From: a virus
Length of the DNA: 25,537 nucleotides
Strand: one strand, 5' to 3'
Virus record (IMG/VR): IMGVR_UViG_3300009103_000140
Location: 1 to 25,537 of that record
Of the stretch, positions 1,894-23,400 are shown one piece after another. The notes beneath the pieces were generated by a model that had not been told where the DNA came from, ran no database searches, and worked only from the letters and a program-made list of their open reading frames with translations. A program made the translations under genes and the position numbers. The stretch's first letter is position 1, and the number at the start of each line of letters is the position of its first letter.

Positions 1894-2922
1894 ATGAACT
1901 ATTCCCAGTTGAAACAAGAGATTCAGGATTATTGCCAGAACAATGAATCCACTTTTGTTAGCAACATCGACAACTTCATTCGGGCAGCAGAGGACAAGAT
2001 CTTTTCAGCATTGGAGCTTCCTGCTTTTTGGAAGTCCGATTCCACAATCTCCCTGTCTGCAGACACTCCAGAGTACACCCTCAAGGCCGGAACTATTGAT
2101 GTCTTGTCTGTGAGAATCTCTGCTGGCTTGTATTCTTTGAATACAAGTAGTTCTTCTACTTATCCTTATCCGATAGCGACTCTTCCGGGTCCGGGCTTGT
2201 TGATTTACAAGAACGGAATCAGCGGCTCTCCCGTTAACTTGCTTGCAACAGATTCTGTTTATCTCTCTGGACTAACTGGCACAGTAGCTAGCTTGGACAC
2301 AGATGACCTGAACGGAGAGTGGTGGGATGTTGGTTCGGTTACGGATGACTACTTCACAATAGCTGGTCCGACAGTGTCCAGTGTGCAGACTACTGGTGGT
2401 GGAGATAATGGTAAGTTCCGCAGGAAGAATGCTGCCGGGGTTGTAGATGAATTGGGTCCAGTCAGTTACTTGCTTCGCAAGGACTACGACTTCCTATTAG
2501 AGGCATACCCGGGAAGTTCTGGAGCCATGACAACGGGTACTCCTCTGTACTATTCGATTTCCTCTTCGGGCGTAGATGCAACATCTACCAGTGATCCGAA
2601 TATGACAATTCGGGTTGGACCCATTCCAGATACTTCTCTTCCATTGGTAGTTACTTACTATGGAAAGACTACATCTGATTCTATCACTGGTGGTACGACA
2701 ACAACGACCACTTGGCTTTCAACAACCTTTCCCGATGTGCTGTTGAACGGATCACTTGTTCACGCTTACTTGTTTATGAAGAGTGATCCTGAAGTGGTTC
2801 AGATCTACGAGAGGCAGTACTCGGAAGGCATTCTTCTTTTGAAGAACATTGCAGATACAAGGCAGCAGTCTGGAGACTATCGTCGCAGTCCAGCGACGGA
2901 CCTGAATCTCCCGCCTCAATAA
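1894..2922 (+). CDS. SU10-type adaptor / head-tail connector with inserted beta-domain, 342 aa
   Basis: The N-terminus (MNYSQLKQEIQDYCQN, then NIDNFIRAAEDKIFSALELP) and the C-terminus (TWL...PDVLLNGSLVHAYLFMKSDPEVVQIYERQYSEG) match the ring-forming adaptor proteins typified by phage SU10, which sit between portal and tail. Between them, roughly residues 75-175, is an extra Ser/Thr/Gly-rich stretch (SGLTGTVASLDTDDLNGEWW and onward to a TTGGGDNG turn). It resembles the small repeated beta-domain also found in the two large tail genes downstream. After the insert the adaptor fold resumes (YLLRKDYDFLLEAYPG, then a GTPLYY strand). AGGA about eight bases before the ATG serves as ribosome site. The window thus encodes two connector-ring proteins, this and the gene at 98. 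Confidence 0.66.
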   Translation: MNYSQLKQEIQDYCQNNESTFVSNIDNFIRAAEDKIFSALELPAFWKSDSTISLSADTPEYTLKAGTIDVLSVRISAGLYSLNTSSSSTYPYPIATLPGPGLLIYKNGISGSPVNLLATDSVYLSGLTGTVASLDTDDLNGEWWDVGSVTDDYFTIAGPTVSSVQTTGGGDNGKFRRKNAAGVVDELGPVSYLLRKDYDFLLEAYPGSSGAMTTGTPLYYSISSSGVDATSTSDPNMTIRVGPIPDTSLPLVVTYYGKTTSDSITGGTTTTTTWLSTTFPDVLLNGSLVHAYLFMKSDPEVVQIYERQYSEGILLLKNIADTRQQSGDYRRSPATDLNLPPQ

Positions 2923-2931
2923 GGACCGTAA

Positions 2932-5814
2932 ATGGCTACTACTTTCAGTTCAAACTATCAGATCAAGCTCATTGGTGACGGTCTTGAGGCTGGAACTTGG
3001 GGTTCATCTACCAACCAGAATCTCCAGAGGTTGGAGGAAGCAATTGGTGGCAGCTACGTCTCCCTAGACATCACCAGTCCTGGCTCTGCCTCCACTTACG
3101 AGGGAGATGCGGGTGCAAATACCCTGTGGTGGGTAACGTCAAATTCTGCTCCTGCCGGACATGAAAATGCGTCAGGCAGGAGTAAGTACATTGTACTTAC
3201 TGGTTCCGTTGGTGCAGACCAGACGGTGAAGATTTACGGGGATGATACTGATATCAATCCAGAACGTGTCTTCTTTGTCAAGAATGGAATAACCGCTCCG
3301 TATGACATTATTCTGCAGTGTGATGATTCGTCTCCTGGTACATACACACTCAAGAATGGTGCATACGCAGCGATCTATACCAATTCATCTGCATCTCCAA
3401 AGATTGGAAATGTTCTTAGCAACATGCAGGTTGAGGGAGTTGTTCTTGCTGGTGCCACTGGAGAGCCCGCGATCTCTGTACCAACAAACTTGGCAGACGC
3501 TCTCTCGATTGAGGACGATGCCTCTTCCCCCTCCACGCTTCTGCAACTAGACACCAGAGATGATGTCACTGCGAATATTGATTCTATCGTCAGGTCGCCA
3601 GCCGAATCCGGTCCTATCGGTACAGCCACAAAAACCAAGCCCGTTGTTGTGACTGCGACAAATACCTTTGTTGAGAACGATGTAATTAGAATTACTGGTG
3701 TTGCTGGCATGGATGAGATCAACAGGGTCTTCAAGGTTATTGCCAGTGATGGCTCTACCTTTAGCATCAAGACACTTGCCGGTAACGATGTAGATGGTAC
3801 TGACTTTGGTGCGTGGACGACTTCCACGGGAACGGCAGTTGGAACAACTGCGCTTGTCACAACCGATGTCGCTCACTCTTTCGCAAATAACGACCGAGTC
3901 AAGATAACCGGCCTTGTCGCAGACAAGATGACTTCGGTCAACAACAAGACATTCACTATCGATACAGCTACGCCCGGTCTTGGTGATGATGAGTTCAATC
4001 TTGTTGGAATTGATGTATCTGGTGATGATGATGAGGTGTCTGGTTCAGGCGGTGTTGCAACCCAGGTGCTTCGCGCTGTGGATTTCAAGGATGTTGGCAA
4101 CTTAGATATAGACGCCAATGTCTTGGACATATCCACCCAGTCAACCGTTGTGACGGTTGCTGATGATACGGATAGTTCGCTCGGTGTGTTTCAAGCTGGC
4201 AACAGCTACATCGAGATAGACACTACGGACTCTTCGGAGCGGGTTGTTATTGGAAGGGACTCCTCTGACTGCGACAAGCTGGATATCGATACCGCCACTG
4301 TAGATCTTACTTCACAGGCAACGACACTTCTCCTTACGGAGGGAAGTGCGACAAGCCTGGATGTATGGGAGACAGCGCCAACTACTGGCGAAGGTGGTGT
4401 TCAGTTGATCACGGTGGACACAACCACACCGAAGGTCACTGTTCCGGTTGAACTTGAAGCAGGTGGTTCTCTTGAGGTTACGGGGAACTTGGATGTCAAT
4501 AGCACTTCTGACTTCGCCGACACAGCCACGTTCGCGAAGCTGGCTATGGATGGTTCCGGCGGGGACATAGATCTCACTGCTGGTGCGGAAGACATTAATA
4601 TATCTGGTGGGACGAGTGCCCTGAATGTCCAAGAGGTACGGACGTACATTGTACCTGATCCGCCAGTGAGCGGACCGATGCAAGGTCCCTTTCAGAACAC
4701 AGAGACACTAGTTTACGATCAGGTTAAGGTTTATTTTCCCGACTACGACAGGTTTGTTGGAGAAACCCTGACCATTTCTGGTCAAACTACTGACGAGAAT
4801 CCTTATTACACTGCGTCCCAACTCAATGGCGAACACACGATTATTGAAACTCAGTCAACCAATTGGCTAACTGTTCAGATTTCTGGATCGAGTGCGACAA
4901 GCGCAACTACGATTGGTGATGTGGGTATAAAGCTATCCTTTTCACCCAGGGACTACCTGAACTTCGACACAACGAACAAGTTGCTGGAAGTGGGGAAGAC
5001 TGCTTTTGGAACTTCTGAGCAAGAGACGGTTGTTCCAACATTCCCCAACGCTCTTCTCACCGGCACTGCTGGCTATCTGGCTTTCAATGCCTTGGATCTT
5101 GCCAATCTCAGTTCCAGTTATGGCATTCGGAATAACAGCGGAACTGTTCAGGGAAGAAATAATGTTGCGGCCCAAGACTGGACTGGCCTTGTAACGACAA
5201 CTCCTAATGATGGAGTTGTAACTGGTCTTACTACACCATTGGTAGCTATCACCTCAAATCCCACGGTAACTGTTAACAGCGATGGTGTTGATAGGGCTAC
5301 TGGTGATCGTGTGACAATCAGTGGTCAAACATCTACCCAGCATGGTCTGACTGCTGAAGATATCAATGGCACTTATGTGATTACTCGCAAGGATGTGGAT
5401 TCTTATTACATTACGATGCAGGATTCACTCCCAACGTCGGGTGGAGCGTTTGGAGACTCAACTCTTCGCTTCCAGTATGTAAGTCGTGCAACGGACCAAG
5501 AAACTAAAGAGGTTTCCGGTTCGTTTGATATTGGTCCGCTTCGGTTCATTTTCAATACAGTGGATGCAGAAGGGGATGGACATTCATCGGGGGATATCAC
5601 TCTTGGCGATACCGGAAAGGGAACATCTGTCACGATGAACTCACAACTTTATTTGGTTCTTGCAACTCAGGCCGAGCAGAATGATGTTAATAATAATGTT
5701 ACTGCCACGATTTTAGTTGGAACTCTCAAAGAAGGTGCTTTGAAGTTTAACTTTGGAGTCCCTGATGGAAAAAGAAGGTGTACCTACTTGGCGATAGGTG
5801 ATTCGGGTAACTGA
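2932..5814 (+). CDS. Modular tail fibre / tail-associated protein, 960 aa
   Basis: The N-terminus (YQIKLIGDGLEAGTWGSSTN) is a conserved virion-attachment start seen in many marine phage tail proteins. The body is almost entirely beta-type sequence rich in Thr, Ser, Asp, Gly and Val. It contains four copies of a small domain with the pattern GDxVxIxG...NG.y.V...d...f.I (about nt 3640-3830, 3850-4065, 4708-4940 and 5260-5480), resembling the phage version of the E1 FCCH-like domain. A segment near nt 4486-4533 (LDVNSTSDF) is shared with the second fibre gene. The C-terminal 100 residues (FIFNTVDAEGDG to the end) look like a compact beta tip. AAGGA at 2921-2925 precedes the ATG. It could be a fibre, tailspike or tail-collar component; the receptor is unknown. 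Confidence 0.6.
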   Translation: MATTFSSNYQIKLIGDGLEAGTWGSSTNQNLQRLEEAIGGSYVSLDITSPGSASTYEGDAGANTLWWVTSNSAPAGHENASGRSKYIVLTGSVGADQTVKIYGDDTDINPERVFFVKNGITAPYDIILQCDDSSPGTYTLKNGAYAAIYTNSSASPKIGNVLSNMQVEGVVLAGATGEPAISVPTNLADALSIEDDASSPSTLLQLDTRDDVTANIDSIVRSPAESGPIGTATKTKPVVVTATNTFVENDVIRITGVAGMDEINRVFKVIASDGSTFSIKTLAGNDVDGTDFGAWTTSTGTAVGTTALVTTDVAHSFANNDRVKITGLVADKMTSVNNKTFTIDTATPGLGDDEFNLVGIDVSGDDDEVSGSGGVATQVLRAVDFKDVGNLDIDANVLDISTQSTVVTVADDTDSSLGVFQAGNSYIEIDTTDSSERVVIGRDSSDCDKLDIDTATVDLTSQATTLLLTEGSATSLDVWETAPTTGEGGVQLITVDTTTPKVTVPVELEAGGSLEVTGNLDVNSTSDFADTATFAKLAMDGSGGDIDLTAGAEDINISGGTSALNVQEVRTYIVPDPPVSGPMQGPFQNTETLVYDQVKVYFPDYDRFVGETLTISGQTTDENPYYTASQLNGEHTIIETQSTNWLTVQISGSSATSATTIGDVGIKLSFSPRDYLNFDTTNKLLEVGKTAFGTSEQETVVPTFPNALLTGTAGYLAFNALDLANLSSSYGIRNNSGTVQGRNNVAAQDWTGLVTTTPNDGVVTGLTTPLVAITSNPTVTVNSDGVDRATGDRVTISGQTSTQHGLTAEDINGTYVITRKDVDSYYITMQDSLPTSGGAFGDSTLRFQYVSRATDQETKEVSGSFDIGPLRFIFNTVDAEGDGHSSGDITLGDTGKGTSVTMNSQLYLVLATQAEQNDVNNNVTATILVGTLKEGALKFNFGVPDGKRRCTYLAIGDSGN
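3181..3201. other. 21-base perfect palindrome (10-bp arms, 1-base centre)
   Basis: AGTAAGTACA and TGTACTTACT flank a single T inside the 960-aa tail gene. The arrangement suits a dimer-binding DNA site better than an RNA hairpin. Its core GTACATTGTAC recurs at 4644-4654 and 21818-21828. Confidence 0.5.
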
Positions 5815-5817
5815 TCG

Positions 5818-8271
5818 ATGTTGAAGCGTGTTGCGATTCCTCCCGGCATAGATAAAGAGTCTACGCAGTATTCTGCTGCGGGCCGGTGGTTTGACTGTAA
5901 CAACATGCGCTTCCGTGGTGGTGTGCCGGAAGTAATTGGTGGTTGGTCGCAAGATGGAAGCTACACGCTAGAGGGGCTGGCGCGTGCCTCGTTCACATCA
6001 AGGGATTACAGCGGAAACAACTTCCAGTTTGTTGGCACAGATTGGAAGTACTATGTGATCTCTGGTGATGGCGCACATGATATTACGCCCGTTCGTGCAG
6101 ACGGCACGGTTTCTATGGTTTTCAAAAGTGAAAATTTGAAGCCAAATATCCGTGTCACTCATACTAATCATGGTCTTTCCGTTGATGACTGGGTTGTTTT
6201 TACCAGTGGTATAACTGCCGATCTTGGAGATGTGACATCTGAAATATTGATGCAGCCTGAAGGTTTTCAGGTTTCTTGGGTTGATAGTCCTGATGTCTAT
6301 TACATCTACACTGTCAACAGGACGGTTGATCCACCTGTTGTTGTTCTACCAGATGCTTCTGAGGAAACTTTTGCGAGTACAGGTTATTCGTACAAGGTTA
6401 CCTCTGGTATCAGCACCGTTGTTACTGGTTCTGGTTGGGGTGCTGGTGAGTGGGGTGGCGATGAGGATCTGAAGACGGTTTATGATCTCGTTGAAGATCC
6501 TATTGGCTACGAGCAGGATAATGGGTTGGGAACGGAGGGTGGATACTGGGTCAAGATTCCTGATGGAATGTTGTCCGAGCTTCCGTCTGTAGATACAGGG
6601 GATTCAACGATTCCTCTTTCGTCAGATGCTGAGGATGCTGGCTTCAGGATACTTATTCGTGGTCTTAATTCTCTTGAACTTGTTAATGGTATAAGTTCTG
6701 TCTATTTACTCCAGAATTATGGTGTTGGCTTTTGGGATGTTTCCCTGAAGAGGGCATACATTTATCCGGTACAGGGTGCGATTGGTAGTGGTGCGACACC
6801 GTTTCCCGCACCTTCAAATCCTGAACCATCTTATGGTGGTGGAACTGATGGGAATATCTGCCTAACCCTTCGTGGTTGGGGGACTGCATCTTCTGTCCAG
6901 CTTGCAACGGATGAGCTTCGTCGGGTCTACATCGACAACTACGGTGAAGATGTGATGTTCTGCAATAGTGGGGGGCCGATCTATTATTGGGATGTTAGTG
7001 AGAATACATCGACGGGTGTTCCCGTTGTGGGTGAATCCGGTGTTGCCGTTGCAATGACAAAGACTTCTGTGTTTACAGAAGCTGTTGGTGTGCCTTCTGT
7101 TGTTGATAGCTTTTTGATTTCCAAGAAAGATGGTCATTGTGTTGCTCTGGGCTGTAACGATTTGGGAGCGGTTCCAGAGGTTATGAACTCACTTCTTGTG
7201 AGGTGGTCTGACCAAAGCAATCCATTTGATTGGATTCCGACAGCAACCAATACTTCTGGTGGTCAGGTGTTGCGAGTTGGTTCTCGGATTATCGGTGGCG
7301 TAAGCACCAAGGACGAGGTGGTTATCTTCACGGATGCGGCTGTCTATTCGATGAGATTCATCGGGGCTCCTGTCACATTTAGTTTCACATTGATTACGGA
7401 AGGAGTTGAGCTTCTGTCTCCTCTTTGCGCTGTCAATGTTGTGAATTCTGTTTTCTTCATGGGGAACGACGGCTTCTATACTTACACCGGATCGGTTGCC
7501 CCGTTGCCCTCCACTGTTTCCAAGTATGTTTTCGATGACATCAATTTGTCAGAGAAGGGCAAGGCGTTTGCTGCGGTGAACTCAGCCTTTTCTGAAGTGA
7601 TGTGGTTCTATCCATCAAGGGATTCCTTTGAACCGGACAGATATGTGGTGTTCAACTACGAAGAGAATGTTTGGTCTATTGGAAAATTTGATATGTCTTC
7701 ATTGAGCTACGCAACTGGTGGAGGCGAGTCGTATGCAAGAACCTCTTGGAGGGATGCAATCGTTTACAGCAATCCAATGGCGACATACATCTCTAACTAC
7801 AATCCGTTGTCAACTGGCGAAAAATATTCAACTGTTCCGATGGTGAAGAATTCTGCCGTGATGGTTCACGAGAAAGGATCTTCTGCTCAGAGCAAGGGAC
7901 TAGATCCCTACATTGAAAGTGGTGAAGTTGAAATTGGAGAAGGGGATTTCTTTTCCTTTGTGTCTCGGATCATTCCAGATTTGCAGTTGTTTGATTATCA
8001 AGACCCCCTCCTTACCAGTGAGCCTGTTGTGAACATCTCCTTGTTCGGCAGAGACTATCCAGGCAATGCTGTTTCTTCTTCTTCAAGTACGGATGTCACG
8101 TTTGCCAGAGATGGCAGTTTACTGACTGGAACCTATGAGCCAACAGGAAGTAGTACTGCCATCCGAATGCGTGCAAGAACTATTGCTATGAAGTTGAGTA
8201 GTGGAAGTACGAGTTTCAAGTGGAGGTCTGGTGCTATTCGATTTGATGCCAGACCGGATGGTATGCGTTGA
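5818..8271 (+). CDS. P22 gp10-like tail accessory / DNA-stabilisation protein, 817 aa
   Basis: This probably forms the distal tail tube ring and keeps packaged DNA in the head. The first 45 residues (MLKRVAIPPGIDKESTQYSA, WFDCNNMRFRGGVPEVIGGW) are the hallmark start of large gp10-like tail proteins in marine phages. The second half has the repeated short-strand pattern expected of a beta-propeller: LLVRWSDQSNPFDW, then VVIFTDAAVYSM, then FMGNDGFYTYTG, ending in MRARTIAMKLSS...FKWRSGAIRFDA. At 817 aa it is much longer than P22 gp10 (about 470 aa). Part of the excess is an inserted small beta-domain near residues 110-190 (NHGLSVDDWVVFTSG), related to those in the two preceding tail genes. The start follows the upstream TGA by three bases, and its own TGA overlaps the next ATG by one base. 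Confidence 0.63.
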   Translation: MLKRVAIPPGIDKESTQYSAAGRWFDCNNMRFRGGVPEVIGGWSQDGSYTLEGLARASFTSRDYSGNNFQFVGTDWKYYVISGDGAHDITPVRADGTVSMVFKSENLKPNIRVTHTNHGLSVDDWVVFTSGITADLGDVTSEILMQPEGFQVSWVDSPDVYYIYTVNRTVDPPVVVLPDASEETFASTGYSYKVTSGISTVVTGSGWGAGEWGGDEDLKTVYDLVEDPIGYEQDNGLGTEGGYWVKIPDGMLSELPSVDTGDSTIPLSSDAEDAGFRILIRGLNSLELVNGISSVYLLQNYGVGFWDVSLKRAYIYPVQGAIGSGATPFPAPSNPEPSYGGGTDGNICLTLRGWGTASSVQLATDELRRVYIDNYGEDVMFCNSGGPIYYWDVSENTSTGVPVVGESGVAVAMTKTSVFTEAVGVPSVVDSFLISKKDGHCVALGCNDLGAVPEVMNSLLVRWSDQSNPFDWIPTATNTSGGQVLRVGSRIIGGVSTKDEVVIFTDAAVYSMRFIGAPVTFSFTLITEGVELLSPLCAVNVVNSVFFMGNDGFYTYTGSVAPLPSTVSKYVFDDINLSEKGKAFAAVNSAFSEVMWFYPSRDSFEPDRYVVFNYEENVWSIGKFDMSSLSYATGGGESYARTSWRDAIVYSNPMATYISNYNPLSTGEKYSTVPMVKNSAVMVHEKGSSAQSKGLDPYIESGEVEIGEGDFFSFVSRIIPDLQLFDYQDPLLTSEPVVNISLFGRDYPGNAVSSSSSTDVTFARDGSLLTGTYEPTGSSTAIRMRARTIAMKLSSGSTSFKWRSGAIRFDARPDGMR

Positions 8272-11200
8272 TGTCTATCGAATTTCGTCCGCTTGAAAAT
8301 GCACCTGAGGAGTATTCTCAGGAGTCGGAGTCTCGGTTTCGCAGGGAGTTGGAAACCAGCTTGTTGCAGCTTTCGTCTTCACTAAACGGGTTCTTGACGT
8401 TTAGCGACCCGGAGTCATCTGCGAACATCAAGCGAGAGTTTTTTCTTTCACTGCCCCTTGGTATCCATGTTGACGGAGAAACAGCTACTCCTCCCGGTGG
8501 TGCGGGTAGCTTTACAACGCTGGATGTCAGTGGGGTTGCTACGTTTGGCGGAGCTTTGGATGTAAACAATACATCCGACTTCTCTGCTCTTGCAGTATTC
8601 AACTCTGGAATTGGCACTGATGATATTGGTGAGATCACATCAGGTCACGGTGTTGAGGTTGACTCTGTCCTACTGAAGGATGGAGTGGTTACCGGGGATC
8701 TCATTGGGGACGTAACCGGCAACGCGACCACTGCAACCACTGCAACCACTGCAACGACTGCGACCAACGCGACCAATGCGACCAATGCGACCAAGGCCTC
8801 GATCACAGACACGACTACCGCTGCTACCCATTACTTGACTTTTGTTGATGCCTCGACAGGCAATGAGGATCTCAAAGTAACAACAGATGGTGGAACTAGT
8901 GGTCCGTTGGGATTCAATCCATCAACAGGGAGTATGTCCCTACCACAAGGAGGCACGCTAACTGCCTCACATTTGAATGGTTATGTGGATTGTTCGGCCT
9001 GGAGGTACAAGGTTGGGCTCTTGGATCAAGTAACAATAGAGGCTTCTGAGACTACTGATGAGTACACGATCACCTTGCCTGGAGACATAGCTTCTACGGG
9101 CGAGTACCTGAAGGTTTCCTCTGTAACTGGGGGAGACACAGTTGTTGCGGACTGGGCATCTCTATCTGGTGATTTGGTCGGGAATGTCACTGGGAACGTG
9201 GAAGGCGATCTCACTGGGGACGTAACCGGGGATGTCACCGGGGATGTGACCGGCGATCTCACCGGGGATGTTACTGGTGGGACGGGTTCGTTCACTAGGG
9301 CACTGACCGGTGCTGGCGATGAGTATGTAGTTAGTTCTATAGCTACTGGTTCAGAAGCTGCTGGGGATTCCCTTCTGTATCTACGTTGCGATAGCGCAGG
9401 ATTCGGTAGTACGACAAAATTTGCAATCGATTATTTTAACAATTCTTTTATTGCCAACAAGCATAGGTTTACAGTTGATGGCAACGGAGCGGTTATCGCT
9501 CAGGGCTCTGTAACTTCCTCTGCTGGATTTGTCGGGGATGTAACCGGGGATGTGGAAGGCGATCTGACTGGGGATGTGGAAGGCGATCTCACTGGGAATG
9601 TAACCGGGGATGTGGAAGGCGATCTCACTGGAAACGCGGATACTGCGACCAAGGCTGCCATCACAGCAACAACTACGGACGCTACCCATTATTTGACCTT
9701 TGTTGATACTTCAACGGGTAATGAGGATCTCAGAGTAACAACAGATGGTGGGACTGGTGGTCCGTTGGGATTCAATCCATCAACAGGGAGTATGTCCCTA
9801 CCCCAAGGAGGCACGCTAACTGCCTCACATTTGAATGGTTATGTGGATTGTTCGGCCTGGAGGTACAAGGTTGGGTTCTCGGATCAAGTAACAATAGAGG
9901 CTTCTGAGACTACTGATGAGTACACGATCACCTTGCCTGGAGATACAGGTTCCGCGGGTGAATACCTTAAGGTTTCCTCGGTAGGTGGAGACACGGTTAC
10001 TGCGGACTGGGCATCTCTATCGGGTGATCTCACCGGTAACGCGGACACTGCGACCAACGCGACCAATGCAACCAACGCAACCAATGTCAATGTCACAGAG
10101 AATACAACTTCCTCCAGTCCTCTCTACTTGGGCTTTGTAGACGGAACTACTGGAAACCAAGAGTTAGAAGTAGATTCAGATTTGGCCTATTACCCGTCAA
10201 GTTCTGAGCTTAAAGTGTCTGATATCCGCATTTCCGGAACTGCGGGCACGGTTTCTAGGCCGAGTTCGACTTTGGCGGTTACTGCTAATCAAGTGGATGT
10301 AACTGGTTCTGGTAATGGTGTAAACATAGAAGATGTAAATTTCAACGGTGCCGATATACAGTATGTTGGTGAAATTAAAGCCCAAACTTACACAGCTCCT
10401 GAGTTTCAAACAGCTTCCTTTATTGGCGATCTCACCGGGGATGTTACCGGTAACGCGGACACTGCCACAACAGTGACTGGGGTAGCGCAGGCTGCAATCA
10501 CATCTGCTGTCAATCTGGCTAGCGTCGGTGCGTTGGATTCGGGGAGCATCACCTCCAACTTTGGCAACATCGATGTTGGGTCCAGCAATATCGAGTGCAA
10601 TGTCTCGACGGCAAATCAATTCAAAGCGGAGGCTGTTGCCGGATCTGTTGCGGTCGTCACGCTGAAGGAGGATGTTGACAACGGGGAGAAGAAAGTCGAT
10701 CTGCGCGCTGCGTCGGAAATGACGGATAGCTTCAAGTTTATTTTCCCCGACTCGTACACGGGTGCAGCGGTTGACGATCATCTTGCCATCTCCAGTATCG
10801 ACAACACAAACGAACTGAGCATGAAGTGGGCTCCAACCGTCGCTTCGCTTTCCGGGTTTCTTGCCGGAGCCCACACCACTGGTCTAGCGATGGATGCGAC
10901 CACATGGTATCCGTGCAACGCGGGCGGCGGCAGTTCGTATGCGACGAGCAACACCAGCAGTGTGTTTGAGATTCCGAGTGGCGACAGACCGATCTTCAAA
11001 TACACCGGCTCCGATTCCATCATTGCGGATGTGACAATCACAGGCAGCGTGCTCAAGACAACTGCCACTCCAGCGGATGTGAGCGCGCTGTTTGTGCGAT
11101 TTGGTCAAAAGAACAACGGTCTTCCGACTGGCTCCGATGTCTTGACGACGGGTGCGTCTATTATTTTGGGCAGTATTCCGTACAACGAATGGCACTCTTA

Positions 11201-11330
11201 CACGCTGAAGATGTCACTGGAGTTGGAAGAGAATGACTATGTGTGTGGCATGTACTTGTGCTACGGGGTCGATCACACATTTCGCCTTGGTTACCAGCAG
11301 ATAAGCATCCAGGGAATCAGGAAGGCATAA
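8271..11330 (+). CDS. Repeat-rich tail fibre, 1019 aa
   Basis: After a charged helical N-terminus (EFRPLENAPEEYSQESES) that probably docks on the tail, the protein becomes repetitive beta-type sequence. It has a GHGVEVDSVLLKDG fibre motif, arrays of Ala-Thr-Thr/Ala-Thr-Asn triplets, arrays of Gly-Asp-Val-Thr-type tetrads, and two copies of a module of about 124 residues (ATHYLTFVD...GLDQVTIEA-type) plus a degenerate third (LYLGFVDGTTGNQELEVDS). Such sequence is typical of trimeric shaft regions. The last 155 residues or so (from about nt 10861, WYPCNAGGGSS onward) look like a globular tip that would bind the receptor, and they are GC-richer than the shaft. I chose the ATG at 8271, coupled to the upstream stop by TGATG, rather than the TTG one codon earlier. 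Confidence 0.68.
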   Translation: MSIEFRPLENAPEEYSQESESRFRRELETSLLQLSSSLNGFLTFSDPESSANIKREFFLSLPLGIHVDGETATPPGGAGSFTTLDVSGVATFGGALDVNNTSDFSALAVFNSGIGTDDIGEITSGHGVEVDSVLLKDGVVTGDLIGDVTGNATTATTATTATTATNATNATNATKASITDTTTAATHYLTFVDASTGNEDLKVTTDGGTSGPLGFNPSTGSMSLPQGGTLTASHLNGYVDCSAWRYKVGLLDQVTIEASETTDEYTITLPGDIASTGEYLKVSSVTGGDTVVADWASLSGDLVGNVTGNVEGDLTGDVTGDVTGDVTGDLTGDVTGGTGSFTRALTGAGDEYVVSSIATGSEAAGDSLLYLRCDSAGFGSTTKFAIDYFNNSFIANKHRFTVDGNGAVIAQGSVTSSAGFVGDVTGDVEGDLTGDVEGDLTGNVTGDVEGDLTGNADTATKAAITATTTDATHYLTFVDTSTGNEDLRVTTDGGTGGPLGFNPSTGSMSLPQGGTLTASHLNGYVDCSAWRYKVGFSDQVTIEASETTDEYTITLPGDTGSAGEYLKVSSVGGDTVTADWASLSGDLTGNADTATNATNATNATNVNVTENTTSSSPLYLGFVDGTTGNQELEVDSDLAYYPSSSELKVSDIRISGTAGTVSRPSSTLAVTANQVDVTGSGNGVNIEDVNFNGADIQYVGEIKAQTYTAPEFQTASFIGDLTGDVTGNADTATTVTGVAQAAITSAVNLASVGALDSGSITSNFGNIDVGSSNIECNVSTANQFKAEAVAGSVAVVTLKEDVDNGEKKVDLRAASEMTDSFKFIFPDSYTGAAVDDHLAISSIDNTNELSMKWAPTVASLSGFLAGAHTTGLAMDATTWYPCNAGGGSSYATSNTSSVFEIPSGDRPIFKYTGSDSIIADVTITGSVLKTTATPADVSALFVRFGQKNNGLPTGSDVLTTGASIILGSIPYNEWHSYTLKMSLELEENDYVCGMYLCYGVDHTFRLGYQQISIQGIRKA
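8724..8795 (+). repeat. 9-nt tandem array (8 units) coding Ala-Thr-Thr / Ala-Thr-Asn
   Basis: Eight consecutive 9-nt units of the form GC[GA]-AC[CG]-A[AC][TCG] encode ATT four times, ATN three times and ATK once in the fibre shaft. A related five-unit array lies at 10041-10085. Length variation by slippage would change shaft length in steps of three residues. Confidence 0.85.
8802..9173 (+). repeat. Large direct repeat in the tail fibre, copy 1 (about 372 bp)
   Basis: This stretch repeats 858 bp downstream. The core 8901-9086 matches 9759-9944 with about three base differences by hand comparison; the flanks are more divergent and copy 2 lacks one codon. It encodes a module running from ATHYLTFVD to TADWASLSGD-type sequence. 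Confidence 0.9.
9168..9278 (+). repeat. 12-nt-type array coding Gly-Asp-[Val/Leu]-[Thr/Glu] tetrads, copy A
   Basis: Successive codon quartets such as GGGGATGTCACC encode GDVT, GDLT, GNVT and GNVE tetrads. The array links the first duplicated shaft module to an intervening segment of the fibre. Periodic Gly and alternating hydrophobic residues suggest a regular beta or collagen-like rod. Confidence 0.8.
9531..9633 (+). repeat. Gly-Asp-[Val/Leu]-[Thr/Glu] tetrad array, copy B
   Basis: This second array has the same tetrad, dominated by a 24-nt unit encoding GDVEGDLT that occurs three times. It leads into the second copy of the large shaft duplication. Confidence 0.8.
9660..10028 (+). repeat. 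Large direct repeat in the tail fibre, copy 2 (about 369 bp)
   Basis: This is the partner of the copy at 8802-9173. The nearly identical core with diverged edges indicates a fairly recent duplication or gene conversion, rather than two anciently diverged modules. Confidence 0.9.
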
Positions 11331-15756: not shown

Positions 15757-17472
15757 ATGAAGAGAAACACCTTTGGTGCGAATGGGGCTGGTGGTCATTC
15801 ATCAGCCCCTTCCTTTAGTAGCGTGATCGATATTGAGGATGAGTTGAAGGGTTGGGGTGACGACATGCTGCTTGAAGAGATGCAGCAACCCCGCTTTCCT
15901 CATATGCAATATCTGGTCTTCTCGGAGATCAATCGCAGGAAGGAAGATCGAGACAGGGTTAATAGAGAGAAGCAGGCTCAGGCCGCTCCCCAGGTTTCGA
16001 TGGCAGAGGAGGTTGTGATGTCTGCCTCTGCTCCTCCCGGTGGCGCACCTCCGGGTGGAATCCCTATGCCGCCTCCCGAAGGAATGCCCCCCGGTATGCC
16101 TGTGGGTATGCCACCGGCTGGACCCCCCGCTCCCCAGCAGTTGCAAGGACCCGTTGGTATCGAGCAAGCATACCCGCCTGTCGAACGCCCTCTTCCCGGC
16201 ACTATGGTTCAAGGAGCCAACAGGGGTGGTCTTGTTAAGGGATACAATCAGAGCCAGAGGCTTCCGTACTATTGGGAGGTTGATGCTCAACGTAGGCGGG
16301 ACAGGAGGGAAGAGGAGGCCAAGATTAGGGCTGGTCAGGAGTGGGAAGGTTTTCCAACTTGGTTGGGTGAAGTGCCCGGTAGAGTAGGTTCTTTCCTGGG
16401 GGATGCTTTTAGTGCGGTGGGAGAAGCCAAAGCGGCACGAGGTGCGGTACAGCGGGCCGCTGGTACTCATTTCATGCTTGGAACTCGTGCTGGGGAGGAG
16501 TTTGAGAAAAGTCTATTGGTTCCAGACTCCTCTTCGGAGGAAGTGCTTTCTACTCAAGATCCATCTTTAGTTGATGTATCGCTCACTTCACCAGTTGATG
16601 GATTATCCACGCAAGTTAATTCGTCACAAGATCCAGCCTTGAATGCGATTGTTGATGAGAGGGCCGCTCTGCTTGCCAAGGAAGAAGCTGCCCGGCGGGC
16701 CGAGGCTGAGCGCCGAGTTGCGGTGACGGGAAGAGTTCCGAGAACCGAGGACCCTCTTGATGCTTACAGAAAGTCGTTGGGGGCTATTTCTGCGTATAGT
16801 GGTGACAAGGAGAGGGAGATCCTTGAAAGGAGAAGGTCCGAGCTTGAAGAGACTTTCGCTGGACCGAGTGATGCAGACAAGAGGCGAAACATTCTCCTTG
16901 CTCTTGCCGAGGGCTTCCTAGATCCCAGCGTCAATGAGGAGACAGGTGTAGCAGCGGGACTTGGTAAAGGTATCAGTAATGCAAGGAAGGTTATACGGAA
17001 CAGGGAAGTTAGTGAAAACGAGAGAAAGAGGAATTTGGCAACAGCCCGCATTGCTCTTGATCAAATGGGTATCGAGGTGTTCAAGGAAGAAGATAAGTCT
17101 GCCAGAGATATTGCTCTCGCCAGGGCCAAGGGTGAACTTGAGATAGGTCTTGCTGGGCAGAAGCAAGCTTCTGCAAAGGCTATTCAGGATTCGATCAATA
17201 CTGTTCACAAGGAAATTGCCGAGGGGCGTGCTGCTGGTTACATGAAGAGGGAGAGTCTGAAGGGTATTGATAAGGCAATTTTAGAGATTGAGGAGACTAT
17301 TAGTACTAGATATTCTCTTATGAGCCCTGATCAAATGAGTGATCATGAGCGCAAGATGAAGGAGAATTTGGAGCAACGATTGCAGGGTTTGTATCTTGCC
17401 AGAAAGCGGGTTTCGGGTGTAGATATGCGGATCAATCGCGACTTTGTTCCCAGGGCGAATCAAGGTGGTTGA
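15757..17472 (+). CDS. Putative internal virion protein, Pro/Gly-rich and helical, 571 aa
   Basis: Residues 25-85 (DDMLLEEMQQPRFPHMQYLV, then FSEINRRKEDRDRVNREKQ and a SMAEEVV segment) match a block seen in many marine phage internal proteins, where a short helix is followed by 'YLV..E.NRR' and a disordered zone. Residues about 90-130 are an almost pure Pro/Gly/Met stretch (APPGGAPPGGIPMPPPEG and similar). The second half is strongly charged and helical: EEAARRAEAERRVAV, REILERRRSELEETF, then FLDPSVNEETGVAAGLGKGI and long Lys/Glu helices to the end. That is consistent with an elongated, partly coiled-coil protein that must unfold for passage through the tail. GAGG at 15747-15750 precedes the ATG. 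It lies just upstream of the transglycosylase gene, in the place of T7 gp15 relative to gp16. Confidence 0.52.
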   Translation: MKRNTFGANGAGGHSSAPSFSSVIDIEDELKGWGDDMLLEEMQQPRFPHMQYLVFSEINRRKEDRDRVNREKQAQAAPQVSMAEEVVMSASAPPGGAPPGGIPMPPPEGMPPGMPVGMPPAGPPAPQQLQGPVGIEQAYPPVERPLPGTMVQGANRGGLVKGYNQSQRLPYYWEVDAQRRRDRREEEAKIRAGQEWEGFPTWLGEVPGRVGSFLGDAFSAVGEAKAARGAVQRAAGTHFMLGTRAGEEFEKSLLVPDSSSEEVLSTQDPSLVDVSLTSPVDGLSTQVNSSQDPALNAIVDERAALLAKEEAARRAEAERRVAVTGRVPRTEDPLDAYRKSLGAISAYSGDKEREILERRRSELEETFAGPSDADKRRNILLALAEGFLDPSVNEETGVAAGLGKGISNARKVIRNREVSENERKRNLATARIALDQMGIEVFKEEDKSARDIALARAKGELEIGLAGQKQASAKAIQDSINTVHKEIAEGRAAGYMKRESLKGIDKAILEIEETISTRYSLMSPDQMSDHERKMKENLEQRLQGLYLARKRVSGVDMRINRDFVPRANQGG

Positions 17473-17480
17473 TAAGAAGT

Positions 17481-20400
17481 ATGGCTGGTAGGTACACATC
17501 TAGTGAACTAGAGGGGTTCCTTTCTAGCGCGACAGATTTGTACGGGAATCCACTGTCTAGTGGTTCTATCTCTGGTGCAAATCGCGAAGACCTCTTGAGG
17601 TATCTTGAAGAGGAGTCGCGCAAGCGGGGTATCAACCCGGCTCTTGCTGCTTCCATGATGGAGCAGGAGTCCAACTTCGATCCTTCGATTGCCTCTCGCG
17701 TGAATGAGGACAGGGAGGGTGAATACCGGGCCGCTGGCTTGTTCCAGCTTGCGCCAGAAACCGCACGCGAGCTTGGTGTCTCCAATCCCCTTGATGTTCG
17801 CGAGTCAATTCGCGGTGGTCTTACATACATAGACAGACTGTTGACCAAGTATGGTGATGATCCAATTCTTGCCGTTGCAGCCTACAACGCTGGTCCCGGT
17901 GCTGTTGATAAGTATGGAGGTATTCCTCCTTATCAAGAGACTGAAGACTATGTGAGAAGAGTGACTGGTTCCTTTGAGGACAGTCAGGGCAACACTATCA
18001 ATCGCTACGAAGAGAACATGCGGCGTTTCGGGGTTCCTCTCCCCGGAGAAGAGGAGGCTCCGGTTGATGAGGTTGCACGGGCAGAGCCCGTAGAGGAAGA
18101 GGCTGAAGATACTTACGAACTGATTCTTCCTGACGGAAGTTTCATGAATGTTCCAATTGGAATAGACAAAGAGGAGGCAAGAGAGTCTGCGCGGGAGGCA
18201 TATCCAATGGCTTTCCGTGGCGAATTGTCAGAAGAAGAAGAGAGCAACATGCTCGACGCAGGTCTTTCTGCTCTTTATCGCTCGGTCTACGGAATTCCAA
18301 TTGGTGCATCGTATGTGGGTGCCTTGTTCGGAGATGATCAGGAAGCTTTTGATCTGACCTCAGAGAGACTCCACGGTATATCCAAAACGGCTCATGGATT
18401 TGCTCCAGGGCTAACAACTCTCGATGATGTTTCAAGGGCATACGAAGATGAGGGCGTCCTTGATGCTGCGGCAAAGTTCATAGAATTCAGTGGCGAGAAG
18501 ATTGGAGAGAGTCTCGGGTTCATGCTTCCAAGTATTGTTAGCGGTGCTGCACTTGGATGGCTTGGCGCACTGGCCGGAAGTGTCATTGCCCCTGGAGTCG
18601 GAACAGTTGTTGGTGGTCTTACAGGAAGGGCACTTGGTGCTGTTGTTGGCAGAACTATGGGGTTCCTTGGCACCCAGGTATTCAACTACCTGTCGATGAA
18701 TATCGAGCGTGGTGTTGAGAACGGTCAAGTCAGTGTCGATGACTACAATCTAATAAATCAGACAATGGCTGCTGGAACGCAAGCTGGACTCGATGGTCTT
18801 CTTGTGTTGATGGCGGGTGGCAAGGTTGCTCTCGGTGTTGGGACAGAGATTGCAACGACTGCAGGAAGGCAGGCGATTACTCGCGGCGGGGCACAGGGTC
18901 TTAGCAAGGGTGGGATTGAGGCTGTTAGGAATTCCTTTGCTCAAACAATGGCAGGACTAGAAGCCCTTAGTCCTGTCAAAAGAATGGGTGCTGTGATGCT
19001 TGAGGAGAGCGTTGCAGAACTTGGACAGCAAGCAATCGAGCGTGGTGCTGCTGGTCTTGAGGTGAGCCCTGCCAGCAAGGAAGCAAGAGACGAATACCTA
19101 GAGGTACTTCTTTCTACAATTGGTCCGTCTTTTGCCTTTGGTGGAATTGGTGGAGTAAGTGCGAAGTGGTCGCAGACCAAGCAGAAGAGGGCAGAAGAAG
19201 GTTTAGTAAAGTCATACGAGGACAGGGCTCTTGTTGTCAACAACCAAGTCAAGAGTGCCGAGGAAGCAGAGGCCAATGAGCTAGAGCGTGTTGCTGGGGA
19301 GGCGGCTGAGGCTGGTCGGATCCCCCTTGAGGCTTCCCTTCTTGCCGCTCCAACGGCAGCGGATATACACACGATAGCGAAGGACCGGAACATCAACTCA
19401 GAGGATGCTGGCTTCCATCAGTTCTCAAGAAGAACTGTCGGAAAGGAACATCTTGATGACATGAACGCGGCGGAACTCAAGCAGGTTTATGACAAGCTTG
19501 CTTCGATGCCGGTTCAAGATGCGCGCATCAGCTTCTCTGTTGCGAACAACCAAGATGCCATCGACGTTGCGTCTCGCATTCGGTCCAACAGCAGTAAGAA
19601 GAGTGGAGCGATCCCTCTATCGGATACTGATTCGCAGATTAGAACTGCGATCCAGCAGACCGGAAAGCTCAATTTCAAAAATGTTGACAAGAAGGTTGTC
19701 GATGAAACTGTTGCAGCATACAGGCGAGCAATGGTCAATCTTCGATTGGTTGAAAAGAAGGATGGAAAGCTAAGGCTTGTTCGCACGAGGCCAACCACTT
19801 CCTCTGCGCTGACCGAAGTTGAATACGACAAGGTTGTTGATTTCATTAACCTTGAGGGTCGCTTCCCCAACCCTGAAGAGTTCGGATCTATTACCGGAAT
19901 CAGGAATGAGGAGTTCTACGAACTCGCCATTCAGGATGCTGTAAATCGTAATGACATCAAGCTGGACAAGGATGGCTATGTCCCGGTAGAGCCAACGTCA
20001 CAGAGGGAGGAGAGATTCTTCCTGCGTGTGAACGGTGTCACAGAGGACAAGTCATACAGAACTGAGGCTCAGGCGAATGAGGCTCGTGGAGAGCGGATCA
20101 GAAGCTTTGAGGAATCTGCCGCAGCGAGAACAAGGGAGGAGCTTGCCGCGCGTGGTCGAGGGATTCTTCCATCGAGACTTACTGCGCCAGCAGAAGAGCT
20201 TGCCCCCAGTGTCGAAGTTGTTTCTGCGGACACGCCACTTCTTTCCAGTCCGAAGGCTGATCTTGTTACCGAATACGAATATTCGGTGGAAGAGTCTCCG
20301 CAGTGGGTGGTCAGGGATGATACGGCTGGCTCTGAGCCTGTTGGAAATTACGACAACGAAGAGCAGGCAAGGAAGAAGGCGAAGCAACTCGGTGATCAGA

Positions 20401-23400
20401 AGAGTTGGGTTGTTCGTGACAGCAATGGTGTGGTTGTTAATACATCTGGAAGCAGGGCTGAGTCAGATGCGTATATCAAGCAGCAGTCTGAGTTGGCTGG
20501 CGGTATCGCGAGGGATACATACAGAAACAGAAGGGAGGGAGAGGGTCCCTATCCGACCGGGAGGGAGAGGGTTTCGGGACCCGAACTTGGTGATCCCCGT
20601 CCGGGGATGCTCCCGCGCTTAAGGAAGGAAGCGACCTGGGAAGAGAGAGGTCTTACGCAGGAGGAAAAGAAGAAGGCCAGGGACAAGAGCAATGCGATTG
20701 CTCGCTCGATCCACAAGGGTTCAAGGATTGCTTACGAAAGGGCGAAGAACAAGAAGAGGCGAGAGCTTCTCGCTGGCCGCGAGGCTGTCCAGCGGAACTA
20801 CACCTATGAAAGGGAGGATGGATTCGTTGTCAATGAGACAACAGTCACAGAGAGTGGTCGCAGGAGTAAGCCTGCAACTCGGGCCTTCTTCTCCGGCACT
20901 GATCCCTCAGAGGCAGAGACTCAGAGGCAGTCTTACGAGGCGTCGAGAGTCGGTGGTGAGTCCTTTGGTGGTGATCTAATTGAGGCGGGTGTCACTGCTG
21001 AAAATATAAGGCAGCTTCGCGATGACCCGAAGGGTTTTGCCGAGAGGCTAAAGCCGGATGGCACGAACGCTCCTCCCGCACAGGAAGAGTTGTTGGACAG
21101 GTTGGCGAAGGCGATTGAGAAGGAACTTGCCGGTCGAAACCTGCGTGGAATAGGTGTCAAGATTGTCAGGGGGATGAAGGGAGCGGAGGCTGGATTCAAC
21201 AGTGTCACCCGTACTATCTCTCTTAGCCTTGATCCCGGGATGGAGAATCTAAGTGACAAGGAGATACTAGAAGAGCTTGGTCGAAGGACAGATCATGAAC
21301 TAATTCATTCCCACAGGAAGTCTGGTTTGATTTCTCCAGGGGAATGGAAGCTCTTTGTTAGATATGCGAGAAAGGTTCCCATCAAGGCGAGTGCCTTGAA
21401 GCGAATCAATGATAGAAGGTTGGAGAATGGTCTTGATCCCAAGCCGGTGAGTACGACGTACTACGATTTGGCTCTTGATGCCTATGCTGGTTTTGATAGT
21501 GAGGGAAATCCCAGGCAGGGAGAAGTTGAGGGCTGGTTCGATGATGACTACAACGAAGAAGCTGTGGCTTTTATGCGTCAGGATTTCGCAAATGATCCTG
21601 CGGCAATCACAGGTAAGCCTGCTGCTTTGTTCAGAAGAACTGCGAGCGTAATTGGGAAGCTCAGAAATGCACTGAACGGCGCTGGTTACAAATCAGATTC
21701 TGAAGTCTTTGAAGTTCTTTGGGGCAAGGAGATGGGTAACCGTCTTGCCGCTGACAAGATGTTGGATATCTGGTGGCTCAAGAGACGTAATCAGCCTGAG
21801 TACAGAGATCTTGTCCAGTACATTGTACTGGCTCAAGAGGCTGGAGAGCTAGGTGCCGCAGAGAGAGCGGGTGCGTTGAACCAAGAGGGACTCGCTAGGC
21901 TTGAGTTGATTCGGTCAAGGATCGGTGATGCAGTTCTCGATCCGGTAGCTGAGTCCAAGCTGAGAAAGTATACGGATCTCTTCAGCAAGAGGAAGAGGAT
22001 TCCGGTTAGATACACAGATGCTCCCCCCGAAGAAGATGTTGAAGAGGGGGTCGTTGTCGAGGATCAGGGCACTGGTCGCGCTGCTCTTCGTCGGGAAGAC
22101 CTTGTTCAAGATGATGGAGTTCAATCAAGGGCTAGGACTGGTGGCGAGTATGGACCCAACGGTGATTGGTATGCCGGTGGGCAGTGGATAGCTACAACTG
22201 AGCTTCCAAAGAGGGAGCGTTCAAAGATAGAGAGGTCTGCCTCAAAGAAAGAGCAGGTTGAGTTCTTTGAGGGGGGTGTCGAGATTGATCCTGGGAGGAT
22301 TCCTATCGTTGCTCGTGGTGGTGGAACATGGCTTAAGCCAGATGGAAGATTGAATTATGATTTCATTGAAAGACAAGGATGGAGTGACCAGAAAATTGCT
22401 GAAGCAGAGAGTATGTCTGAGGCGTACCTTCGTGGTGAGCGTTTTGTTGGAGCAGTAGAGCATCCAATTTTGGCTAGTTTTCAGGATGCATCAAGAATGA
22501 TTTTGGCAGGGATGAGTGTCCCTGGTGCAATGCTGGACAAATTTTCACCCGATGTTCGTGATAGACTTGAACGATTAGCTCCACAAGAACTTGGAGTTCC
22601 TATTACCGAAGGCACTGGTCGCGCTGCGTTGAGAAGAGATATAACACCAGAGATACAAGAGGCGGCTCGTCAGGAAACTAGCAGGGGTGCTGATGCTGTA
22701 GCGGACAGGATGGATGCGATCTTGCCGGAGGCTGAAAGGCTTACAGATGGTTCGTCTACTTACACTGCGGGGCAACCGGATGGTGTTCCCTGGACCGATC
22801 TTTCTCAGACAGAGTTGAACGAGCGAGGTGCTGGCATCAGAGATGTCGGAGAGCTTAGAGAAGCTCTCGTTGATATATGGCAGGAGACGCTGAATCGTGT
22901 GAGCATCGCAGCGAGGGATGCCGTAGAGGAAACGGGAGCATCGTTCAGTCTTCTTCCAGAAGAAGTGGACGCTGCATTCCGCCTCCCCCTTAGCGCACAG
23001 CTTTGGTACGAGTTGGGTGGTGAGACGTTTGGACAAAATCTTCCACCCCTGGATAATCGCACTATGGGTCTTTTCTTTGATCTAATCGGTGCAACTTCTG
23101 CGCGGACTGAGCCAAGAGATAATATGTATCGTGCGATTTCGGTTCTTTCTCAGGTTCTAAGGGAAGTTCCAGTTGATGTAGATCTTGCTATGACTGGTCC
23201 CGTTGGGAAGGCTCTCTCTCGCGATGGTGTAGATGTAACTAATTTGGATGGAAACAAGACTGGTCAATTTAGTGGCACTCTCATGCTTACGTCTGGCATG
23301 CCAGTTCCTGTTCCATTCCCTGTAAATGATGTTTGGGTGGGTCGCATTTATGATGTAACAGAGAAGCAGCTTGCTGATAATCCCAGCTTGCATGAAGTGA

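Follow-up and report, generated by a model that had tools for sequence, protein, structure and literature searches.

We have analysed a 25.5-kb virus record, IMG/VR IMGVR_UViG_3300009103_000140 (25,537 nucleotides; this whole stretch is called here the window), which carries a podovirus-type virion module of a short-tailed phage and in which three virion genes, coding for an adaptor (P0001), a fibre (P0002) and a gp10-like nozzle (P0003), contain six related segments that point to one group of small beta-barrels. One of them (A) lies in the adaptor, four (F1 to F4) in the fibre and one (G) in the nozzle. A and F1 to F4 are insertions in comparison with the homologous proteins, and the kin of A were found in the nozzles of related phages. 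A second family of small domains, with no kinship with the barrel, shows this pattern too: one relative has it in the adaptor, and a near twin of that relative has it in the nozzle. Such a distribution suggests swappable surface parts that could tune the contact with the host cell.

The preliminary description of this DNA, made from the sequence alone, had seen one small domain reused in the three genes, resembling the first catalytic cysteine half-domain (FCCH) of ubiquitin-activating enzymes, at coordinates that proved accurate within tens of bases. Aligned in pairs the six segments show only weak similarity, and their kinship was seen with family profiles: profile hidden Markov models (HMMs) built without the window phage lift all six over the controls (F1 with just one of the models), in three flavours and not as one uniform insert. 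An HMM of the G region from 30 nozzle homologues, window excluded, gave 68.1 bits to G, 26.5 to F4 (E 3.3e-7 at Z=1000), 10.8 to A, 9.3 to F3, 4.9 to F2 and -1.5 to F1. When iterated with relatives only (the open reading frames, ORFs, from loci of the window's own phage were left out), the HMM came to include a second nozzle domain, and in this form it gave 36.7 bits to A, 31.9 to F4, 14.7 to F3, 8.7 to F2 and -0.1 to F1. We call the first nozzle domain c1, the optional second one c2 and the domains of TubB-type ("tail tubular B") nozzles tub. The c2 HMM (10 sequences) scored A at 36.9 bits (E 1.6e-10 at Z=1000) and the tub HMM (seven domains) gave 25.2 bits to F1 and 25.7 to F2; compared across models, A had 40.8 bits with c2 versus 14.2 with c1all and 15.5 with tub. 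The Pfam family E1_FCCH (PF16190) matched F1 (25.0 bits, E 2e-5), F2 (15.2 bits, E 0.023) and the whole P0002 (27.7 bits), all under its cut-off of 29.5 bits, and did not match A, F3, F4 or G taken singly.

The best scores among 2902 reversed ORFs used as decoys were 9.8 bits with c1all, 13.7 with c2, 7.3 with tub and 10.7 with it3. Each segment was also shuffled 500 times and scored with c2, c1all, it3 and c2all. None of the shuffles reached the score of A with any of these models, none that of G or F2 with c1all and it3, and none that of F3 or F4 with c1all, it3 and c2all. Chance or low complexity as the source of the matches of A, F2, F3, F4 and G is ruled out by the shuffles and the reversed decoys. 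F1 did not separate from its own shuffles, 17 to 156 of 500 reaching its score in all four models, and the evidence for this segment is therefore that of Pfam and the tub HMM. F3 is the next weakest, with 14.7 bits in context with it3 (best decoy 10.7); taken alone it scored 21.1 bits with the same model versus 10.0 for the best of its 500 shuffles.

In a tree of 53 domains, built on few alignment columns according to the warning of the tool, F1 and F2 grouped with the TubB-type domains (support 91/95), G fell within the nozzle first domain (95/94) and F3 paired with F4 (100/96). This last was the only well supported pair among the six, which speaks against one domain having been recopied. The bit scores back the same grouping into flavours. 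Judged by sequence, F1 and F2 are similar to the E1_FCCH-like domain that "tail tubular B" nozzles carry, F3, F4 and G to the first domain, which is constant in this family of nozzles, and A to the optional second nozzle domain, c2, of related phages. These three flavours therefore reflect several separate draws on the superfamily and not a simple sixfold copying of one domain; that all six were copied from one another is ruled out by the bit scores together with the tree.

Every copy had been described as inserted in an otherwise conserved fold, which holds for A and for F1 to F4, absent from close homologues, and fails for G. In the adaptor, the distance between the conserved anchors SVRI and GPV is 112 residues in P0001 versus 11-19 in the 24 homologues in which both were found, and 31 of 31 other distinct aligned rows (L002, L003 and identical sequences left out) lack an insert at this site, which makes A an insertion. 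The full adaptor model places A between strands of the beta-rich middle part of the protein, and from the order along the protein its site would correspond to the fibre-dock region. An alignment of eight fibre homologues has gaps over F1-F2, F3 and F4, which are thus insertions as well. The fibres of L007, L008, L011, L013 and L032 match the N-terminus of P0002 and a second block downstream of F1-F2 (in L032 this block begins within F1-F2), and the fibre of L021 (841 aa) carries an E1_FCCH domain of 41.8 bits, above the Pfam cut-off, at about residues 142-219, a site unlike those of the window. G was found in all 30 aligned nozzle homologues, so that G as an insertion is ruled out, and the first-domain HMM gave at least 15 bits to 38 of 38 nozzles spanning the region, most of which had trained it. 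The domain had also been called mobile, and this is borne out by the insertion of A and F1 to F4 relative to homologues, by the different site in L021 and by the presence of the kin of A in the nozzle of relatives.

A and c2 share the motifs YLxGLTGT and LN..WW.V, and both the fold and the signature residues of c2, N45/W48/V51 (numbering of alignment A3), are preserved in A. W48, invariant in c2 and A, is W143 of P0001 and a candidate contact residue. A scan with A alone recovered nothing beyond the same phage and tblastn of A against the phage collection gave no match; a scan with the A4 alignment also recovered nozzles and one nozzle of the TubB type. In the nearest relatives by nozzle, c2 follows the first nozzle domain. 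A tree of nozzle cores (L032, L024 and L055 left out) put the window in a well supported clade (100/99) of 12 rows: c2 is present in nine and missing from two, and the window has at this place an orphan sequence, N2. Scored with the c2 HMM, N2 gave no signal as a diverged c2, and a scan of viral_contigs with it recovered the same phage and nothing else. The pattern is that of a domain gone from the nozzle and present in the adaptor, although an exchange with another phage fits equally well.

The second domain family, B, provides a case independent in sequence. A 100-aa insert in the adaptor of L005 matches an insert in the nozzle of L010 (42% over 77 aa, E 6e-8). The nozzle of L005 is about 72% identical to that of L010 on both flanks and lacks the B insert; conversely, the adaptor of L010 lacks it and has a core nearly identical to that of L005 (L012 and L033 were left out of this comparison). 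A scan with the L010 B domain found only L010 itself. Both are single metagenome contigs, and an assembly error behind inserts that lie inside open frames is unlikely. Such a pair of near twins makes the relocation of domains between structural rings directly testable. Other adaptor sites are also occupied in relatives, in L005 (loop B) and in L006, L016 and L031 (loop C, with inserts at L006:3404-3679 and L031:8406-8633), and neither the B nor the C inserts had a good match to a Pfam family. For the barrel, the comparison gives kinship, insertion and differing sites in related proteins. Tentatively, the adaptor and nozzle rings might be seen as equivalent sockets that accept small domains from a common stock of at least two unrelated families, the FCCH-like barrel and B. 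If so, a host-contact element could shift between a 6-fold and a 12-fold ring, with the fibre evolving separately.

Regarding the fold, A was the only segment modelled, with AlphaFold from 11 sequences including c2 relatives (mean predicted local distance difference test, pLDDT, 73.8); A was judged from this model since the full adaptor model leaves it without confidence (pLDDT <50 at residues 80-180). With Foldseek against PDB the FCCH-bearing enzymes UBA6 and UBA1 were the top six rows (E 0.10-0.38), and the tailspikes P560, phi297 and KP34gp57 appeared in later rows (E 0.48-1.8). With VIA-align, in which a Z below 8 may reflect just a common arrangement, UBA6 and UBA1 chains occupied the top 20 rows over the FCCH range (Z 4.8-5.2), and phi92 endosialidase (Z 4.8) and endoNF (Z 4.0) were also aligned. 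Predicted viral structures matched by the model were phage tail and unnamed proteins, none with E <0.001, and the profile of A found no relative by sequence among solved structures (best E 2.2, recA). The profile of the nozzle domain, searched against PDB, had endosialidases first (E 0.0029 and 0.02), with P22 coat (2m5s, 0.084) and the UBA1 FCCH (0.16) among the next rows. At a lax E of 10, 16 of 31 nozzle domains matched End_beta_barrel (best E 2.9e-5) and 10 of 31 E1_FCCH (best 4.1e-4); G itself had 14.6 bits with End_beta_barrel (PF12195), under the curated cut-off of 35. Since the fold matches of the A model and the independent sequence profile of the nozzle domain agree, both lines of evidence lead to one group of small barrels, short of formal proof. 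The label FCCH-like is backed for A by the fold, at modest scores, and for F1 and F2 by sequence.

The explanation that we favour, with our judgement about evenly poised on it, is that these FCCH-like barrels are mobile members of one superfamily used as exchangeable decorations of the tail, on rings and fibre, probably for weak contact with glycans or other surface components. G is a constant element of the nozzle, the fibre has gained the tandem pair F1-F2 and the two single copies F3 and F4, and the adaptor ring has acquired in one loop the type of barrel that relatives carry as optional second nozzle domain, N2 being a presumably unrelated sequence at that place in the nozzle of this phage. 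The barrels may project from the tail and provide, in many copies, weak contacts with sugars or with other components of the host surface, by which the tail would find the cell and orient on it more easily; such contact is proposed because of the precedents of barrel insertions in phage depolymerases. In phage SU10 the adaptor is a dodecamer with fibre-dock loops that holds the fibres and the nozzle is a hexamer (PMC9509320). By analogy, passing from nozzle (six copies) to adaptor (12 copies) would change the number and position of barrels and leave the working folds untouched. Several points weigh against this explanation. Binding, exposure and copy number in this phage would follow from precedent and analogy, as would the binding to glycans or mucus and the lateral contacts put forward in the preliminary description. 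The insertion barrels of depolymerases help to line a catalytic pocket, and no such pocket was recognised here. Every segment of the window is under the Pfam cut-offs, the fold matches of A are modest (Z about 5, no Foldseek E <0.001), and its grouping with c2 is weak in the tree (46/87), with A on a long branch. Furthermore, A stands in the adaptor only in this phage (window, L002 and L003), so the direction and mechanism of its move are not readable.

A serious rival, to which we assign a lower though real probability, is that the barrels are structural struts making lateral contacts between tail subunits (adaptor with fibre, nozzle with nozzle) that stabilise the tail and have no part in host contact. 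The constancy of G is what is expected of a structural part, and the P22 coat protein touched by the nozzle-domain profile has an insertion domain with a structural role. In SU10 the tail is stabilised by mutual contacts of the extra nozzle domains, and the dock loops of the adaptor hold the fibre (PMC9509320). However, close relatives presumably assemble without A and F1 to F4, and a strut that is needed would be expected in both of two near twins, unlike the B domain. It is rather improbable that the inserts are tolerated passengers, small well-folded domains dropped by recombination into permissive loops with little selection for function. Such a view accounts for the several unrelated types of insert (A, B and C) in different adaptor loops, for the lack of good Pfam matches of B and C and for the orphan N2, but members of this one superfamily turn up at several sites of fibre and rings, also in phages whose nozzles are of other types, and A retains fold and c2 signature. 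As to the source of A, its copying from F3 or F4 of the phage's own fibre, and not from a nozzle domain, appears very improbable: F4 and A have a BLAST similarity of 27.3 bits (E 1.6e-5 in the set of six sequences), but the c2 model gives 40.8 bits to A and only 6.3 to F4, and the tree puts A with c2 (weakly for A) and F3+F4 elsewhere.

Exchangeable decorations of this kind have partial parallels. E1_FCCH, the first catalytic cysteine half-domain of UBA1 and UBA6, is matched weakly by F1 and F2 and is the best fold match of the A model, and GenBank already gives the annotation "FCCH domain ubiquitin-activating enzyme E1" to phage nozzle-like proteins that contain it; here, with all segments under the cut-off, the domain also occurs in the adaptor and repeatedly in the fibre. 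The beta-barrel of phage endosialidases (PF12195) came first by sequence when the nozzle-domain profile was compared with PDB and aligns, in phi92 and endoNF, with the A model, but its cut-off is not reached and P0001, P0002 and P0003 matched no sialidase family. The depolymerase KP34gp57 has an inserted barrel of six strands that contributes to the substrate pocket; mutations in this barrel lower the activity, and the authors of that work propose gain by horizontal transfer (PMC10653864). A and F1 to F4, and not G, are like it small barrels set into an otherwise complete fold of a tail protein; unlike it, they are on an adaptor ring and a fibre and no enzyme was recognised. Smug et al. 2023 (PMC10684548) described how tail proteins, the receptor-binding ones among them, shuffle their domains, speaking of fibres, spikes, endolysins and polymerases, and exchange between adaptor and nozzle rings does not figure in the passages of that work considered here. 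Our literature search, which mostly did not cover subscription journals, found no publication dealing with FCCH-like domains of phage virions, nor with a barrel in the adaptor ring or domain exchange between adaptor and nozzle. What is known is the domain itself, its occurrence in TubB-like nozzles and the mosaicism of tail proteins; what is new is the barrel in the adaptor ring and the two domain families exchanged between adaptor and nozzle. Contact with the host is usually credited to fibres and spikes. If ring proteins do carry swappable binding domains, host range and adsorption would reside partly in genes read as plain connectors, and the "ubiquitin-activating enzyme" annotations of phage nozzles would be explained.

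The three genes have 100% identical counterparts in a 62-kb IMG/VR record, IMGVR_UViG_3300008740_000006, in which the matches to profiles A2, A3 and PF16190 are confined to the adaptor, fibre and nozzle genes. P0001 is an SU10-type adaptor by family score and by fold, the model of its core matching the adaptors of SU10, Pa223 and cyanophage A4 (Z about 15.7; SU10 7z47_B, Z 15.6). P0003 belongs with phrog_3287 by profile match and also matches the solved nozzles of Pa223 (9nwi) and VP1 (8zkm/8zkk). Coordinates are collected in Table 1.

Table 1 Genes and domains discussed in the text, with positions in the window unless a locus is given
Feature	Position	Strand	Segment analysed	Evidence
Adaptor gene P0001, 342 aa, SU10_adaptor family	1894..2922	+		PF24175 72.2 bits, cut-off 27
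Adaptor insertion, P0001 residues 76-187	2119..2454	+		112 residues between SVRI and GPV; c2 HMM 36.9 bits; AlphaFold model
FCCH-like barrel A, about residues 110-183	2221-2442	+	2203-2424	within adaptor insertion
Fibre gene P0002, 960 aa	2932..5814	+		N-terminal ~200 aa conserved in relatives' fibre gene between adaptor and nozzle
F1, TubB-flavour FCCH-like domain	3619..3828	+	3619-3828	PF16190 25.0 bits; tub HMM 25.2 bits
F2, in tandem with F1	3832..4065	+	3832-4065	PF16190 15.2 bits; tub HMM 25.7 bits
F3	4690..4941	+	4690-4941	it3 HMM 21.1 bits; partner of F4, 100/96
F4	5227..5481	+	5227-5481	HMM of G region, window excluded: 26.5 bits (F4), E 3.3e-7 at Z=1000
gp10-like nozzle gene P0003, 817 aa	5818..8271	+		phrog_3287 E 4.6e-71 over residues 1-767
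G, fixed first barrel domain (c1) of nozzle	6109..6417	+	6124-6405	in 30/30 aligned nozzle homologues
N2, orphan sequence at relatives' c2 place	6457..6870	+		c2 HMM -1.8 bits, 95/500 shuffles reach this score
B domain	L005:1010-1309 (adaptor), L010:5360-5617 (nozzle)			42% identity over 77 aa

Some other genes deserve mention. In a distant relative, a 293-aa protein encoded upstream of the adaptor gene (L040:2522-3400) has a barrel domain of 35.1 bits, a further type of gene carrying it. The window contains upstream of P0001 a second gene of the SU10_adaptor family (98-847, 41.5 bits), so this phage seems to have two adaptor-like ring proteins. A second fibre-like gene (8268-11330) has short tandem repeats similar to GDLTGDVTG, located by Tandem Repeats Finder (TRF) at 9204-9614. 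Finally, a giant open frame (17469-25535) runs off the end of the window; an SLT transglycosylase domain (75.3 bits) lies close to the start of this frame, and towards its end there is a weak match to ASCH.

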